DNA from: Salipiger pallidus
GTDB lineage: Bacteria; Pseudomonadota; Alphaproteobacteria; Rhodobacterales; Rhodobacteraceae
Length of the DNA: 64,000 nt
Direction of reading: 5' to 3'
NCBI RefSeq assembly: GCF_014643635.1
Contig: NZ_BMJV01000001.1
Location: 1,060,925-1,124,924, forward strand
In this document: positions 16,303 through 26,440 of the stretch, piece after piece
How positions within the stretch are numbered: position 1 is the stretch's first letter
Layout of the letters: each line of letters opens with the position of its first letter
Position numbers and translations under genes: made by a program
The notes under the pieces: model-generated
What the model was told of the DNA's origin: nothing
The model's input: the letters and a program-made list of their open reading frames with translations, nothing else
The model's database searches: none

Positions 16303-17367
16303 TTAGGCGATCCCGGCGGCGATGAAGCGCTCGGCCAGCGCCTTGTAGGCCTCCGACATAACGCCATCGCCAAGCGCCACGGGACGCCCCTCGTCACCGC
16401 CAACGCGGGTCTCGAGGTCGATGGGAAGCTGCGCCAGCACCGGCAGGCCAAGCTTCTCGGCCTCGGCCTGCACGCCGCCCGCACCAAAGACATGGGATTC
16501 ATGGCCGCAGTCGGGGCAGATGAACATGGACATGTTCTCGATCAGCCCCAGCACCGGCACCTTGAGCGTGTCGAACGCATCCAGCGCCTTGCGCGCGTCG
16601 ATCATCGCCACGTCCTGCGGGGTCGAGACAACGATGGCCCCGGCAAGATCGCTCTTCTGGCCTAGCGTGAGCTGAACATCCCCGGTGCCCGGCGGAAGGT
16701 CGACCAGCAGGATATCCAGCTCGCCCCACTCCACCTGCATCATCATCTGCTGCAGCGCCCCCATGAGCATGGGCCCGCGCCAGACCACTGCCTTGTCCTC
16801 AGGCAGCATGAAGCCGATGGACATGAGCGTCACGCCGTGGGCCTCAAGTGGAATGATGGTCTTGCCGTCCGGCGAGGCGGGGCGTTTCGAGATCCCGAAC
16901 ATGCGCGGTTGCGACGGCCCGTGGATGTCCGCATCCAAAAGACCCACCCGCCGACCGGCCTTTGCCAGCGCCACGGCGAGGTTCGAGGACACGGTGGATT
17001 TCCCCACCCCGCCCTTGCCCGAGCCGATGGCGATGACCGATTTCACGCCCGGAGGGTTCATCCGCCCCTCCTGCGCCTTCATGTGCCCGCCCACCTTCAG
17101 CGAAGGCGCGGGTTTGGGCGCCGAATGGGCTGTCAGAGCCACGCTGACGCTGTCCACACCGTCAAGATCTGCCACGGCCCGCTCTGCGGCGGCACGCAGG
17201 GGCTCCATGTGACGGGCAACTTCGGGATTCGGTGCCTCGATGACAAAGCGGACGGAGGCCCCGTCAACGCTCAGGGCTCGAATCAAATCCCTCGAAACAA
17301 GGTCGCCGCCGTCGGGCAATGGTAGCGCTGCCAGCCGTGCCTTCACCGCGTCGATTGTCGTACTCAT
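16303..17367 (-). CDS. Mrp/NBP35-family Fe-S cluster carrier ATPase
   Basis: A 354-aa protein. The N-terminal ~85 residues form a MIP18/DUF59-like domain. Then come the deviant Walker A 'GSGKGGVGKSTVSSNLA' (about 113-129), the 'DLPPGTGDVQL' Walker B region and the CxxC pair in 'FICPDCGHES' that binds the transferred Fe-S cluster. I chose ATG 17367 because it is preceded by AGGATGG; an in-frame start at 17391 lacks a site. ApbC/Mrp proteins load Fe-S clusters onto apoproteins in the cytosol. It is transcribed away from the DUF1127/sRNA locus. Confidence 0.92.
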   Translation of the reverse strand: MSTTIDAVKARLAALPLPDGGDLVSRDLIRALSVDGASVRFVIEAPNPEVARHMEPLRAAAERAVADLDGVDSVSVALTAHSAPKPAPSLKVGGHMKAQEGRMNPPGVKSVIAIGSGKGGVGKSTVSSNLAVALAKAGRRVGLLDADIHGPSQPRMFGISKRPASPDGKTIIPLEAHGVTLMSIGFMLPEDKAVVWRGPMLMGALQQMMMQVEWGELDILLVDLPPGTGDVQLTLGQKSDLAGAIVVSTPQDVAMIDARKALDAFDTLKVPVLGLIENMSMFICPDCGHESHVFGAGGVQAEAEKLGLPVLAQLPIDLETRVGGDEGRPVALGDGVMSEAYKALAERFIAAGIA

Positions 17368-17606
17368 GGTCCATCCTTTCGAGAATTGCATGTTGACGCT
17401 GGGTCAATATGCGCTGGCCGCAAACCTGGATCCGTTAGCGCCCAAAAAAGTCGCTTAACGCCTCGTTATTGCACAACACCCTGCCAGAACGTCCATGCGC
17501 AAACTGCATATCGGCCTTGAGGAAGGACGGGATTGTGCAGTCGCAGCATTTCCACCATTTTGACCTCAACAACGACGCAAACGATGCACATAGGCTAACG
17601 AACAAG
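17368..17606. other. Divergent intergenic region between mrp and the DUF1127 gene
   Basis: The promoter of the DUF1127-sRNA transcript should lie here. I could not place it with confidence: a CTTGAG at about 17516 and TTGACC at about 17560 are candidate -35 elements, but neither has a convincing -10 partner. In Rhodobacter sphaeroides the equivalent locus is driven by the heat-shock sigma factors RpoHI/RpoHII. Confidence 0.4.
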
Positions 17607-17813
17607 ATGGCATACGCAACCGATCACAGCACCCACGGCCGCAGCGCCTTCGCCGGTATCGTGGCTGCCTTCCGCGAGCGCAGCGCACGCCGCCGCCTCT
17701 ACAAGGACACCCTTCGCGAGCTGAACAGCCTCAGCTCCCGCGAGCTGAGCGATCTGGGGCTGCACCGCTCGATGATCCGCCGCATCGCGTACCAGGCCGC
17801 CTACAGCGCCTGA
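17607..17813 (+). CDS. DUF1127 small protein, CcaF1-like
   Basis: A 68-aa basic protein. The C-terminal half 'RRRLYKDTLRELNSLSSRELSDLGLHRSMIRRIAYQAAYSA' is a canonical DUF1127 motif (L-x-x-L-S-x-R-E-L-x-D-L-G-L). The ATG at 17607 is taken; a longer frame from 17469 adds a segment with no DUF1127 similarity and no evident ribosome site. In R. sphaeroides the DUF1127 protein CcaF1 binds RNA and is encoded directly upstream of, and on one transcript with, the CcsR sRNAs, affecting their maturation. Here the same arrangement is seen, with the first CCTCCTCCC hairpin starting only 16 nt after the stop codon. Confidence 0.88.
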   Translation: MAYATDHSTHGRSAFAGIVAAFRERSARRRLYKDTLRELNSLSSRELSDLGLHRSMIRRIAYQAAYSA

Positions 17814-17829
17814 CGGAATACAAGGTTTC

Positions 17830-17904
17830 GAGACGCTCTCTCCTCCTCCCTGAGCGTTTCGGACATCGGCGACGGCCCCTCTCCTCCTCCCTGGGGTCGT
17901 CGCC
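17830..17904 (+). ncRNA. CcsR/cuckoo-like sRNA unit A (two hairpins with CCTCCTCCC loops)
   Basis: Hairpin 1 (17830-17860): stem GAGACGCTC/GAGCGTTTC around a TCTCCTCCTCCCT loop. Hairpin 2 (17868-17904): 12-bp stem GGCGACGGCCCC/GGGGTCGTCGCC with one G-U around the same loop. The stem sequences differ entirely from the following units while the loop is invariant, as expected for an RNA whose loop is the functional part. It lies immediately downstream of the DUF1127 stop. Confidence 0.82.
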
Positions 17905-17919
17905 ATAAAGAATTCGGAT

Positions 17920-17993
17920 CGGAGCCCCCTCTCCTCCTCCCTGGGGCGTTTCGACAGAGCGGCGATCTCTCTCCTCCTCCCTGAGATCGCCGC
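17920..17993 (+). ncRNA. CcsR/cuckoo-like sRNA unit B
   Basis: Hairpin 3 (17920-17953): CGGAGCCCCC/GGGGCGTTTCG, pairing through a bulged C and G-U pairs. Hairpin 4 (17959-17993): GCGGCGATCTC/GAGATCGCCGC, 11 bp. Both present the TCTCCTCCTCCCT loop. This is the first of four units repeated every 108 bp. A GGGGCC-N5-GGCCCC hairpin follows at 18004-18020 and may mark the boundary or processing site to the next unit. Confidence 0.85.
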
Positions 17994-18027
17994 ACCTTAC
18001 AAAGGGGCCCCCTAGGCCCCACATCTT

Positions 18028-18101
18028 CGGAGCCCCCTCTCCTCCTCCCTGGGGCGTTTCGATAGCGCGGTGATCTCTCTCCTCCTCCCTGAGATCACCG
18101 C
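18028..18101 (+). ncRNA. CcsR/cuckoo-like sRNA unit C
   Basis: Hairpin 5 (18028-18061) repeats the CGGAGCCCCC/GGGGCGTTTCG stem. Hairpin 6 (18067-18101) is GCGGTGATCTC/GAGATCACCGC. Compared with hairpin 4, both arms changed together (C-G to T-A), a compensatory substitution supporting an RNA structure. A GGGGCC-CACTA-GGCCCC spacer hairpin follows at 18112-18128. Confidence 0.85.
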
Positions 18102-18135
18102 ACCTTACAAAGGGGCCCACTAGGCCCCACCTCTT

Positions 18136-18209
18136 CGGAGCCCCCTCTCCTCCTCCCTGGGGCGTTTCGATAGAGCGGTGATCTCTCTCCTCCTCCCTGA
18201 GATCACCGC
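18136..18209 (+). ncRNA. CcsR/cuckoo-like sRNA unit D
   Basis: Hairpin 7 (18136-18169) and hairpin 8 (18175-18209, GCGGTGATCTC/GAGATCACCGC), both with the CCTCCTCCC loop. Nearly identical to unit C over the full 108-bp repeat, indicating recent tandem duplication. The spacer hairpin GGGGCC-CACTA-GGCCCC is at 18220-18236. Confidence 0.85.
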
Positions 18210-18243
18210 ACCTTACAAAGGGGCCCACTAGGCCCCACATCTT

Positions 18244-18317
18244 CGGAGCCCCCTCTCCTCCTCCCTGGGGCGTTTCGATAGCGCGGCGATCTCTCTCCTC
18301 CTCCCTGAGATCGCCGC
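18244..18317 (+). ncRNA. CcsR/cuckoo-like sRNA unit E
   Basis: Hairpin 9 (18244-18277) and hairpin 10 (18283-18317), the latter with the C-G version GCGGCGATCTC/GAGATCGCCGC as in unit B. The following spacer (18318-18350) is diverged (CGGGCAGACATGGCCC) relative to the GGGGCC spacer of the other units. Confidence 0.85.
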
Positions 18318-18350
18318 ACCCTACATCGGGCAGACATGGCCCATCGGTTT

Positions 18351-18429
18351 CGGAGCCCCTCTCCTCCTCCCTGGGGCCTTCGGAAAGCAAGACGGCGGCG
18401 CCCCTCCTCCTCCCGGGCGCCGCCGTTTT
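18351..18429 (+). ncRNA. CcsR/cuckoo-like sRNA unit F, ending in a terminator hairpin
   Basis: Hairpin 11 (18351-18382): CGGAGCCCC/GGGGCCTTCGG with a bulge. Hairpin 12 (18392-18426) has a new perfect 12-bp GC stem ACGGCGGCGCCC/GGGCGCCGCCGT, a CTCCTCCTCCC loop and a TTTTC tail. The last loop motif is therefore carried by the rho-independent terminator of the whole array, so the 3' RNA would end in the terminator itself. Confidence 0.83.
18392..18429 (+). terminator. Rho-independent terminator of the DUF1127-sRNA transcript
   Basis: Perfect 12-bp GC-rich stem followed by TTTT at 18426-18429. Its loop contains the twelfth CCTCCTCCC motif. Confidence 0.85.
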
Positions 18430-18457
18430 CATGTCTGGTTCAAACCTGGCGCGTGGA

Positions 18458-18611: not shown

Positions 18612-21600
18612 ATGGGCATGGACAAGACCTTTGACGCGGCCGAGGCCGAGGCGCGGATCTACGAAGCATGGGAGCAGTCGGGCGCTTTCAAGGCGGGGGC
18701 GAACGCCTCGAAGGGCGAGAGCTTCACCATCATGATCCCGCCGCCGAACGTGACCGGCAGCCTGCACATGGGCCACGCCTTCAACAACACACTGCAGGAC
18801 ATCCTGATCCGCTGGCACCGGATGCGCGGCTTCGACACCCTCTGGCAGCCGGGACAGGACCATGCGGGCATCGCCACGCAGATGGTGGTGGAGCGCAAGC
18901 TGGCCGCCGAAGGCCAGCCCGGACGGCGCGACATGGGCCGCGAGGCCTTTACCGCCAAGATCTGGGAATGGAAGCAGGAATCCGGCGGCACCATCATCAA
19001 CCAGCTGAAGCGCCTCGGCGCATCCTGCGACTGGTCCCGTAACGCCTTCACCATGAGCGGCGCCGAAGGGGCGCCCGCCGGTGAGGAAGGCAACTTCCAC
19101 GACGCGGTGATCAAGGTCTTCGTGGAGATGTACAACAAAGGGCTCATCTACCGCGGCAAGCGGCTGGTGAACTGGGACCCGCATTTCGAGACCGCGATTT
19201 CCGACCTGGAGGTCGAAAACGTCGAAGTTGCCGGCCACATGTGGCACTTCAAGTACCCGCTGGCGGGCGGCGCGACCTACACCTACGTCGAGAAGGATGA
19301 AGACGGTAACGTGCTCTTCGAGGAAGAGCGCGATTACATCTCCATTGCCACCACCCGTCCCGAGACCATGCTGGGCGATGGCGCCGTGGCCGTACACCCG
19401 TCGGACGAACGCTACGCCTCGATCATCGGGCAGCTTTGCGAGATCCCGGTGGGGCCGAAAGAGCATCGCCGCCTCATCCCGATCATCTCGGACGAGTACC
19501 CGGACCCGACCTTCGGTTCGGGCGCGGTGAAGATCACCGGCGCGCATGATTTCAACGATTACCAAGTGGCCAAGCGCGGCGGCATTCCGATGTACCGCCT
19601 CATGGACACCCGCGGCGCCATGCGCGCCGACGGCCTGCCCTACGCCGACTGCGCCGCCATCGCCGCAGAGGTTGCCCGTGGCGAGCGGGAGCTGACCGAG
19701 GCAGAGGCCGACGCCATGAACCTCGTGCCCGACCACCTGCGCGGGCTCGACCGCGAGGACGCCCGCAAGGCCGTCGTGGACGAGATCTCGGCCGATGGGC
19801 TGGCGGTGATGACCGAAAGCACCGATCCGCGCCTCGGCAAGCCGATAAAGGCGCCCGTGGCGCCCGAGGAAGGCGGCGAGCCGCGCGAGGTGGAGCTGGT
19901 GCCGCTGGTCGAGGCCAAGCCGATCATGCAGCCCTTCGGCGACCGCTCGAAGGTGGTGATCGAGCCCATGCTCACCGACCAGTGGTTCGTGGACACCTCC
20001 AAGATCGTCGGCCCGGCGCTGGACGCCGTTAAGGACGGCAAGGTCCGGATCATGCCGGAAAGCGGCGAGAAGACCTATTACCACTGGCTCGAGAACATCG
20101 AGCCCTGGTGCATCTCGCGCCAGCTGTGGTGGGGCCACCAGATCCCCGTCTGGCACACTCCCGGGCTGGGGGGCGAATGGCGATCCTTCTGCGCCCCGAG
20201 CGAGGCCGAAGCGCTGAAACAGATGCACGACTTCTTCGGAGAGGACGCCGAGTTCCTTGCCGTCGAGGATGCCGCTGCCGCCGAGGACATGATCGCCGAC
20301 CTGCTGTCGCAGGGCACTGATTTCAGCGGCGTCGACCAGCGCCGCCGGGCGCAGGCGATCCCGTTCTTCCGCGACCCCGACGTACTTGATACGTGGTTCT
20401 CGTCAGGGCTCTGGCCCATCGGCACGCTGGGCTGGCCCGAGCAGACTGAAGAGCTCAACCGCTACTTCCCAACCTCCGTGCTGGTGACGGGGCAGGACAT
20501 CCTGTTCTTCTGGGTCGCGCGGATGATGATGATGCAGCTGGCCGTGGTGGACGATATCCCTTTCCACGATGTCTACCTGCATGGCCTCGTGCGCGACGCC
20601 AAGGGCAAGAAGATGTCCAAGTCGCTTGGCAACGTGGTCGATCCGCTCGAGATCATCGACGAATACGGTGCCGATGCCCTGCGCTTTACCAACGCTGCCA
20701 TGGCGTCGCTTGGCGGCGTGCTCAAGATGGACACGCAACGGATCGCGGGCTACCGGAACTTTGGGACAAAGCTGTGGAACGCCACCCGCTTTGCCGAGAT
20801 GAACGAGGCCGTGGGCCTTGGCGGCGGTCTGCCCCAGCCCACCGCGACGGTGAACAAGTGGATCCTCGGCGAGACCGCCAAGGTGCGGGAAGCCGTTGAC
20901 GCAGCGCTGGCCGACTACCGGTTCAACGATGCCGCACAGGCCCTGTACGCCTTTGTCTGGGGCGTGGTCTGTGACTGGTACGTGGAGTTCTCCAAGCCCC
21001 TGCTTCAGGGCGAGGATGCCGCCGCCAAGGCCGAAACGCAGGCGACCATGTCCTGGGTCATCGACCAGTGCCTTATCCTGCTTCACCCGATCATGCCCTT
21101 CATCACCGAAGAGCTCTGGGGAACCGTGGGCACCCGGTCCAAGATGCTGGTGCACGGCGACTGGCCGACCTACACCGCCGCCGAGCTGGTGGATGCGGAC
21201 GCCGATGCCGAGATGACCTGGGTCATCGCGCTGATCGAAGGGGTGCGCTCGGCCCGGGCACAAATGCACGTTCCCGTGGGCCTTTACGTGCCGGTTCTGG
21301 TCACGGGCCTCGATGCCGCCGGACAGGGCGCATGGGACCGCAACGAGGCGCTCATCAAGCGTCTGGCGCGGCTCGAAAGCCTGACGCCGGTGGACAGCTT
21401 CCCCAAGGGTTGCATCACCGTGCCCGTGGGTGGGGCGTCCTTCGGGCTGCCGCTGGCCGAGATCATCGACGTCGCCGAAGAGAAGCTCCGCCTTGAGAAG
21501 GCGCTTGGCAAGCTGAGTAAGGAATTGGGCGGCCTGCGTGGGCGCCTGAACAACCCCAAGTTCGCCGAAAGCGCCCCCGCCGAGGTGGTCGAGGAAGCGC

Positions 21601-21677
21601 AGGCCAACCTTGCCGCCCGCGAGGAGGAAGAGGCCAAGCTGCGCGAGGCGCTGAACCGGCTCGCCGAGATCGGCTGA
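18612..21677 (+). CDS. valS: Valyl-tRNA synthetase
   Basis: A 1021-aa class I aminoacyl-tRNA synthetase that charges tRNA-Val. The HIGH motif appears as '[13 protein letters not shown]' (about 43-55), KMSKS as '[10 protein letters not shown]' (about 664-673), and the CP1 editing domain spans roughly 200-440 with '[17 protein letters not shown]'. The C-terminal ~65 residues are a charged coiled coil ('[20 protein letters not shown]'), the tRNA-binding arm usual for ValRS. The ATG at 18612 follows GGAAGAG; 18618 is an alternative. A strong terminator follows at 21698-21732. Confidence 0.97.
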
Positions 21678-26171: not shown

Positions 26172-26204
26172 AAAGCCCCGACGCGGTCAAGCGAAAGGGG
26201 CTTT
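26172..26204 (-). terminator. Intrinsic terminator in the metZ leader (riboswitch expression platform)
   Basis: On the minus strand AAAGCCCC, 17-nt loop, GGGGCTTT followed by seven T's (26174-26168 region). It lies between the SAM-II aptamer and the metZ start, so ligand-dependent termination is plausible. Confidence 0.85.
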
Positions 26205-26211
26205 CGGTCGA

Positions 26212-26263
26212 CCTCTTTAGCGGGATGTTTAACGTGGCCCGCAATCCGGTAACAAAGCGCCAC
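26212..26263 (-). promoter_or_regulatory. SAM-II riboswitch aptamer upstream of metZ
   Basis: On the minus strand the 52 nt read GTGGC-GCTTTGTTACCGGATTGC-GGGCCAC-GTTAAACA-TCCC-GCTAAAGAGG. P1 is GTGGC/GCCAC. The loop TTACCGGATTGC, the joining GTTAAACA and the pseudoknot-forming GCTAAAGAGG match the SAM-II (SAM_alpha) consensus. An intrinsic terminator follows. SAM binding would reduce metZ expression when methionine/SAM is plentiful. SAM-V shares this core, so the two cannot be separated fully by eye. Confidence 0.88.
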
Positions 26264-26440
26264 GGCGCCCGAATTACGCCCCGACAGACCGTGCGTCAAG
26301 CGTGCAGCGTTTGGGGCGGTAAATGTCTGCTTGCCTTTCATGCGGCAGACATGACGCCGTGCCATCCTTTCCGTGAGAGCGGTTGTGTTCGGGGGCGGCC
26401 CCGGCCCATCATGCAGGCAATCCAAAGACGCGGGACGATC

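Follow-up and report, generated by a model that had tools for sequence, protein, structure and literature searches.

Organization of the repeat array

Behind a gene encoding a small DUF1127 protein in Salipiger pallidus, a marine bacterium, lies a series of short repeats, raising the question of whether these correspond to stress-related sRNAs of the CcsR (cuckoo RNA) type and, if so, whether their number is exceptional. The stretch of DNA analyzed, referred to here as the window, is 64 kb in length. The motif CCTCCTCCC appears in the window exactly 12 times, in every case on the + strand between positions 17842 and 18414 and nowhere else, as compared with a mean of 0.88 and a maximum of 4 copies in shuffled sequence. 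The spacings from loop to loop (41, 50, 40, 68, 40, 68, 40, 68, 40, 66, and 43) alternate between ~40 and 66-68, with the spacing of 50 falling between units 1 and 2. On folding, all 12 copies were found in hairpin loops, arranged as six pairs with two hairpins per unit, in agreement with the original prediction of twelve hairpin loops in six two-hairpin units, although the exact number of units is uncertain, as assembly from short reads can merge neighboring tandem units. The units, as defined by folding and by matches to the Rfam model RF02791, are as follows:

17824..17904, + strand: unit 1, two anti-Shine-Dalgarno (aSD) hairpins; loops at 17842 and 17883; RF02791 match 17825-17908, 49.7 bits
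17919..17993, + strand: unit 2; loops at 17933 and 17973; RF02791 match 17910-17998, 52.5 bits, E 1.2e-11
18027..18101, + strand: unit 3; loops at 18041 and 18081; RF02791 match 18023-18106, 52.3 bits
18135..18209, + strand: unit 4; loops at 18149 and 18189; RF02791 match 18131-18214, 51.5 bits
18243..18317, + strand: unit 5; loops at 18257 and 18297; RF02791 match 18239-18322, 51.7 bits
18348..18429, + strand: unit 6; loops at 18363 and 18406; RF02791 match 18347-18431, 46 bits

The first hairpin begins ~10 nt past the DUF1127 stop codon. From unit 2 to unit 5, the distance between successive unit starts is exactly 108 bp, as had been noted for four of the units. The accompanying description of four nearly identical units holds for units 3-5, which share 95-98% identity with each other, but not for unit 2, which is only 85-87% identical to units 3-5, such that three plus one is the better description; units 1 and 6 reach only ~70%. 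When the array region was folded, a minimum free energy of -307 kcal/mol was obtained, as compared with -222 kcal/mol (sd 7) for dinucleotide shuffles (z -12), meaning that the predicted structure withstood the comparison with shuffled sequence proposed at the outset. When hairpins were instead considered one at a time against versions with shuffled stems, the second hairpin of each unit gave z values of about -5.5 to -6, whereas the first hairpins were weaker, with those at 17933 and 18363 faring only mildly better than their shuffled counterparts (z -1.2 and -1.8, respectively).

Relation to CcsR and other cuckoo RNAs

The covariance-model search that had been suggested returned matches of all six units to CcsR1 (RF02791, in full 'Conserved CCUCCUCCC motif stress-induced RNA 1') at 46.0-52.5 bits (E 1e-9 to 1e-11), with none of the six reaching the gathering cut-off of 65.3. 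Against the same model, the first units of Cereibacter johrii, C. azotoformans, and C. ovatus reached 84-106 bits, while units 2-4 scored only 39-54. Since the scores of the window units equal those of Cereibacter units 2-4, the former are as CcsR-like as are the known paralogs. The rhizobial ar14 model (RF02344) was also matched (best score 55.2 bits, below the gathering cut-off of 58.8); of the three aSD hairpins that this model calls for, the third corresponded to the first hairpin of the next unit.

The genes surrounding the array were considered next to those of relatives:

16303..17391, - strand: mrp, Fe-S NUBPL/Mrp P-loop ATPase (Pfam PF10609), a divergent neighbor and synteny anchor that adjoins the array in most loci of the family
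17607..17813, + strand: DUF1127 gene, ccaF1 ortholog, 68 aa (PF06568, E 1.1e-11), of the type that precedes nearly all arrays of relatives
18612..21677, + strand: valS, downstream neighbor (Pfam PF00133 and PF10458; tblastn), in Salipiger and near relatives

The order of a divergent mrp, a DUF1127 gene, and the array is found in Salipiger, Cereibacter, and most Rhodobacteraceae relatives, with a DUF1127 ORF lying 20-70 nt upstream of nearly every array among relatives. At the site adjoining mrp, and behind the same promoter box, C. johrii and C. azotoformans, both close to R. sphaeroides, contain exactly 8 loops, the equivalent of the published CcsR1-4 of R. sphaeroides. Given the shared mrp-DUF1127-array order and the presence of the 8-loop Cereibacter arrays at the matching place, the Salipiger locus is, at the level of sequence and gene order, the ortholog of ccaF1-CcsR1-4 (CIN1, cuckoo RNA). 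The originally proposed CcsR/cuckoo identity is thus upheld by the RF02791 and RF02344 matches, by synteny, and by the 8-loop Cereibacter arrays, with the Rfam gathering scores not being reached, and the DUF1127 gene described ahead of the array is confirmed by its PF06568 match.

In common with ccaF1-CcsR1-4 of Rhodobacter (Cereibacter) sphaeroides, the Salipiger locus presents a DUF1127 gene, two-hairpin CCUCCUCCC units, mrp as neighbor, and a predicted RpoH-type promoter. It differs in containing six rather than four units, in the homogenization of the middle units, in that the last aSD hairpin apparently itself serves as terminator, and in having valS downstream. Ultraconserved CCUCCUCCC loops and variable stems are likewise seen in the cuckoo RNA ar14/NfeR1 (RF02344) of the Rhizobiales, with anti-SD action having been demonstrated for NfeR1 (PMC10746234). 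NfeR1 is, however, a single sRNA of three hairpins that stands alone under a sigma70 promoter of its own, whereas in Salipiger an array lies in the predicted 3'-UTR behind the DUF1127 gene. Sinorhizobium meliloti SmelA075/SmelA099 and SmelC201 are also modules of one repeated aSD hairpin present in variable number (PMC3927594), yet contain 2-4 hairpins per RNA and are dispersed, unlike the 12-loop Salipiger array, predicted to belong to one transcript.

The predicted promoter and an associated conserved box

Upstream of the DUF1127 gene, three elements could be assigned:

17495..17519, + strand: upstream conserved block in which an ATGC-N7-GCAT palindrome runs into CTGCAT-(A/G)GC-(A/G)GCATTG, here degenerate CTGCATATCGGCCTTG; from the consensus of 96 promoters
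17533..17548, + strand: TTGTGCAGTCGCAGCA box, an RpoH-type -35 (TTG 17533-17535) fused to TGCA-NNY-GCAGCA; found in 124 array loci
17555..17561, + strand: predicted RpoH-type -10, CCATTTT; T-9 in 92 of 96 relatives; predicted start near 17569

The family consensus, drawn from 96 dereplicated promoters, reads ccATGC-N-tt-cTGCATrGCrGCATTG, followed by a gap and ATTGTGCA-NNY-GCAGCATTTgcC-CAT-TT. The TTG and the T 27 bp downstream fit the -36/-34 and -9 positions of the RpoHI/RpoHII promoter logos, with spacing as in those logos (PMC3441632), and a promoter of the RpoHI/RpoHII type is predicted here. Indeed, two RpoH-like sigma factors besides RpoD are encoded in the same genome.

The exact 16-mer box occurs once in the entire S. 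pallidus genome. Its conservation across 124 loci is in part by construction, given that 13 fixed letters were used for their collection; the unforced evidence comes from the frequency of the box upstream of arrays collected by other means and from the flanking positions. The strongly kept spacer is not needed by RpoH, and the array promoters expose a box, TTGTGCANNYGCAGCATT, that known RpoH control leaves unexplained.

Most Salipiger genomes containing a close variant of the box, TTTGCANNYGCAGCATT, have it upstream of a conserved protein of ~72 aa that is DUF1127-like, with the match of this protein to Pfam DUF1127 not being significant (E 0.22). The likeness of this protein (MAFLTASHAHDTAPFFSRLI...LQRLSDEQLAAKGLRREDIVRHVFHDVYYL) to DUF1127 lies in its C-terminal half; in S. 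pallidus itself, the locus is L285 (C4:213075-213091), with further examples at L280-L282, L284, and L286-L289.

The sites described for PhaR in Paracoccus and R. sphaeroides are rich in TGC (PMC10888616), and those of S. meliloti read YGCRNYGCR (PMC12542648). The S. pallidus phaP (phasin) promoter contains the PhaR-like sites CTGCACCGCAG and CTGCGGTGCAGCATT, 28 bp apart (L276, - strand, 1324-1380). The boxes of this PHB repressor from Paracoccus, Rhodobacter, and Sinorhizobium resemble the array box in being TGC-N-GCA inverted repeats, and the half-site GCAGCATT is common to the array box and the S. pallidus phaP promoter. Still, the center of the array box comprises 4 nt (TGC-N4-GCA), as opposed to 3 in the phaP sites (TGC-N3-GCA), and for this reason PhaR is a lead rather than a result.

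Linker hairpins and the terminator

In the gaps between units 2-6, folding revealed a third small hairpin, lacking the CCTCCTCCC motif, that was not mentioned in the original prediction:

18004..18020, + strand: linker hairpin GGGGCC-C(C/A)CTA-GGCCCC, repeated at 18112-18128 and 18220-18236, with a weaker one at 18328-18342

This hairpin is preceded by the unpaired, AU-containing CACCTTACAAA, a candidate RNase E site. Among linkers from relatives with a spacing of 58-82 bp, all 150 examined contained a stem of at least 4 bp, this being a raw count obtained without a shuffle control.

At the other end of the array, the second hairpin of unit 6 (18389-18429) ends in TTTT, a feature likewise not mentioned in the original prediction. 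Of the Salipiger arrays assembled as far as their last hairpin, nearly all retain the CCGCCGTTT(T) end there. The last hairpin, as read from these ends, doubles as an intrinsic terminator bearing the motif in its own loop. A simple promoter and terminator scan found nothing at the array locus, since the promoter is not of the sigma70 type and the loop of the terminator exceeds the length limit of the scanner.

Unit number and turnover among relatives

The array was present in 19 of the 19 other Salipiger genomes searched (the genus as delimited by GTDB, including Alloyangia and Citreicella), with 5-14 exact loops. In a sample of the family, 73 of 149 genomes contained at least three exact loops in tandem. 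Across relatives, loop number per locus ranged from 2 to 17, with Paracoccus yeei containing 14 and other genomes containing 15, 16, and 17, all such counts being lower bounds because units may be lost when tandem arrays are assembled from short reads (one locus contains an N run inside the array). Outside the family, none of 285 genomes of the class showed the strict three-loop pattern in a search whose spacing limits could miss tighter three-hairpin rhizobial RNAs. The description of the S. pallidus array as expanded is hence apt relative to the four units of Cereibacter, but not relative to the 5-14 loops of Salipiger or the 2-17 of relatives at large. An unusual expansion was accordingly rejected, with 12 loops falling inside both the genus and the family range. 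The Salipiger array is ordinary in kind, a larger unit number being common among relatives, and the family as a whole spans 2-17 aSD hairpins, with the four-copy cluster of R. sphaeroides marking a single point along that range.

When ten complete Salipiger arrays were compared, the nearest foreign unit was of the same class in every instance (first with first, 10 of 10; last with last, 10 of 10; middle with middle, 30 of 30), an outcome reached by none of 500 label shuffles, although, since the Salipiger genomes compared are related, this count is not a strict probability. First and last units showed similarities of 0.91-0.92 to the end units of other species, as compared with 0.68-0.72 to their own neighbors. 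For middle units, similarity to own neighbors was 0.91 and to foreign units 0.92, with own neighbors being closer in S. pallidus. By these sequence comparisons, the first and last units each have orthologs at the same end of the array in other species, while the middle units are homogenized, with their number subject to turnover. Such a pattern of fixed ends and a homogenized middle would be expected from repeated rounds of unequal exchange or gene conversion. The conserved ends and freely evolving middle, together with the range of 2-17, make copy number itself a testable trait. This architecture of fixed ends and a mobile middle is a new point, as are a terminator carrying an effector loop and the unexplained promoter box.

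The stems were next considered in a single fixed register across 87 distinct Salipiger hairpins, a cleaner approach than another pairing count in which registers were chosen per hairpin and pairing was thus inflated. Stem position 4 paired in 0.91 of cases, as compared with 0.44 when partners were re-dealt, and all six standard pair types were seen at this position. By contrast, the loops were nearly invariant (547 exact, 33 with one mismatch). Loops that stay constant on differing stems, as originally described, were thus confirmed. As for the compensatory stem change reported within the window, the CG/TA change is present and covariation in the genus is strong, but the window itself offers only one double substitution.

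Proposed mode of action and alternative readings

The locus is very probably a ccaF1-CcsR ortholog in which an RpoH-driven transcript would yield processed two-hairpin sRNAs, the loops of which would mask ribosome sites. Sequence, structure, covariation, homology, synteny, and promoter conservation were observed directly here; transcription, processing, targets, and dosage are what we infer. From the RpoH-type promoter at ~17533-17561, one transcript would extend through the DUF1127 coding sequence and the six-unit array, the latter as 3' UTR, and stop at the last hairpin, acting as intrinsic terminator. By analogy to R. sphaeroides, RNase E, helped by the DUF1127 protein, would cut the AU-rich linkers, releasing some six sRNAs of 75-85 nt, with size and processing sites being taken from that species. 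There, ccaF1 is co-transcribed with CcsR1-4 from an RpoHI/HII promoter and maturation involves RNase E and CcaF1 (PMC10253847), with RpoH transcription and release by RNase E and the DUF1127 protein having been demonstrated in R. sphaeroides (PMC10253847; PMC7866481). DUF1127 proteins may also act through protein contacts (PMC12501420). The two CCUCCUCCC loops of each sRNA would then pair with GGGAGGAGG/GGAGG ribosome sites, much as NfeR1, through its CCUCCUCCC seeds, occludes the ribosome site of ntrB and thereby silences it (PMC10746234), and so lower translation of sugar, C1, and central carbon genes and of transport genes in heat or oxidative stress. More units would provide more sRNA per transcript.

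The perfect pattern GGGAGGAGG-N3-10-ATG was found at only six sites in the S. pallidus genome, as compared with one for a reversed-pattern control. Four of the six head long ORFs, namely, those for an aldehyde dehydrogenase, a polyketide-cyclase-like protein, a PfkB sugar kinase, and a sugar-binding periplasmic protein. As candidate targets, these four would be in keeping with the transport and carbon targets of the CcsR RNA family. Avoidance of SD sequences by the DUF1127 gene was also considered: the SDs of the Salipiger homologs are weak, but they did not differ significantly from those of genes in the window (p 0.10), and self-immunity of ccaF1 through a missing SD is, on that value, not claimed.

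More tentatively, and with rather less confidence than we place in the sRNA assignment, all ccaF1-CcsR loci of the family might be governed not only by RpoH but also by an unrecognized transcription factor, perhaps the PHB-granule sensor PhaR, that would bind the TTGTGCANNYGCAGCATT box together with the block lying 31 bp upstream of it and would also control the second conserved small DUF1127-like gene, with the array serving as a tunable dosage device in which inner units are gained and lost and end units stay fixed.

The strongest alternative is that the array acts as a multivalent decoy, damping translation globally, with aSD loops competing with the 16S rRNA tail on all strong-SD mRNAs and copy number, not specific targets, being under selection. 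The invariance of the loops on drifting stems, the free variation in unit number (2-17 loops), and the redundancy of the loops in NfeR1 (PMC10746234) all speak for such a role. Nonetheless, specific targets and phenotypes have been described for both CcsR and NfeR1 (PMC8307010; PMC10746234), and a perfect 9-nt site is offered by few mRNAs only, making general damping rather unlikely relative to target-directed sRNAs. It is far less probable that the array is a neutral or selfish REP-like tandem repeat merely located behind ccaF1. Such a repeat could be expected to present the homogenized middle units of varying number seen here, as well as the dispersed two-hairpin copies seen in other Salipiger genomes, but not invariant loops on compensatory stems, fixed first and last units, or a locus and promoter fixed across the family, with a function known in Cereibacter-type relatives.

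A repeated protein-coding sequence is scarcely credible. With a unit of 108 bp, equal to 36 codons, an ORF of 233 aa on the minus strand (17731-18432) stays open through the array, and a minus frame is open in many relatives as well; such openness can be ascribed to the GGGAGGAGG-rich composition. In relatives, however, units measure 101-114 bp, often not a multiple of three, such that a coding frame would shift from unit to unit, stops appear in several relatives, and the hairpin changes are compensatory. The coding reading of the 108-bp repeat was rejected, as the frame is not kept in relatives. A CRISPR-like array was likewise rejected, judged from unit layout only, as the units are near-identical throughout, with no unique spacers visible.

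Dispersed cuckoo copies and additional observations

Apart from the array, a search of the S. pallidus genome for dispersed cuckoo copies returned none besides one solitary CCTCCTCCC hairpin, GCGTCCGC-TTTCTCCTCCTCCCAGT-GCGGACGC, with an intrinsic terminator behind it (L007; C9:26208-26290, - strand). This hairpin lies just past the stop codon of what, read by eye, is an apparent TRAP-type large permease gene, and is possibly a 3'-UTR-derived anti-SD sRNA. In other Salipiger genomes, dispersed two-hairpin copies were found at L008, L009, L012, L014, L015, L020, L027-L029, L036, and L180. In many dispersed copies, a TTG and the RNA flank a PhaR-like YGCR-N-YGCR palindrome, and L008 and L180 have the same promoter type as the array. 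A further mrp-DUF1127-array locus of Rhodobacteraceae type was found in a record titled Nocardioides marinus (L258), probably a mislabeled or contaminated assembly. Finally, a SAM_alpha riboswitch (RF00521) was detected at 26196-26273 on the - strand, with a score of 59.7 bits.
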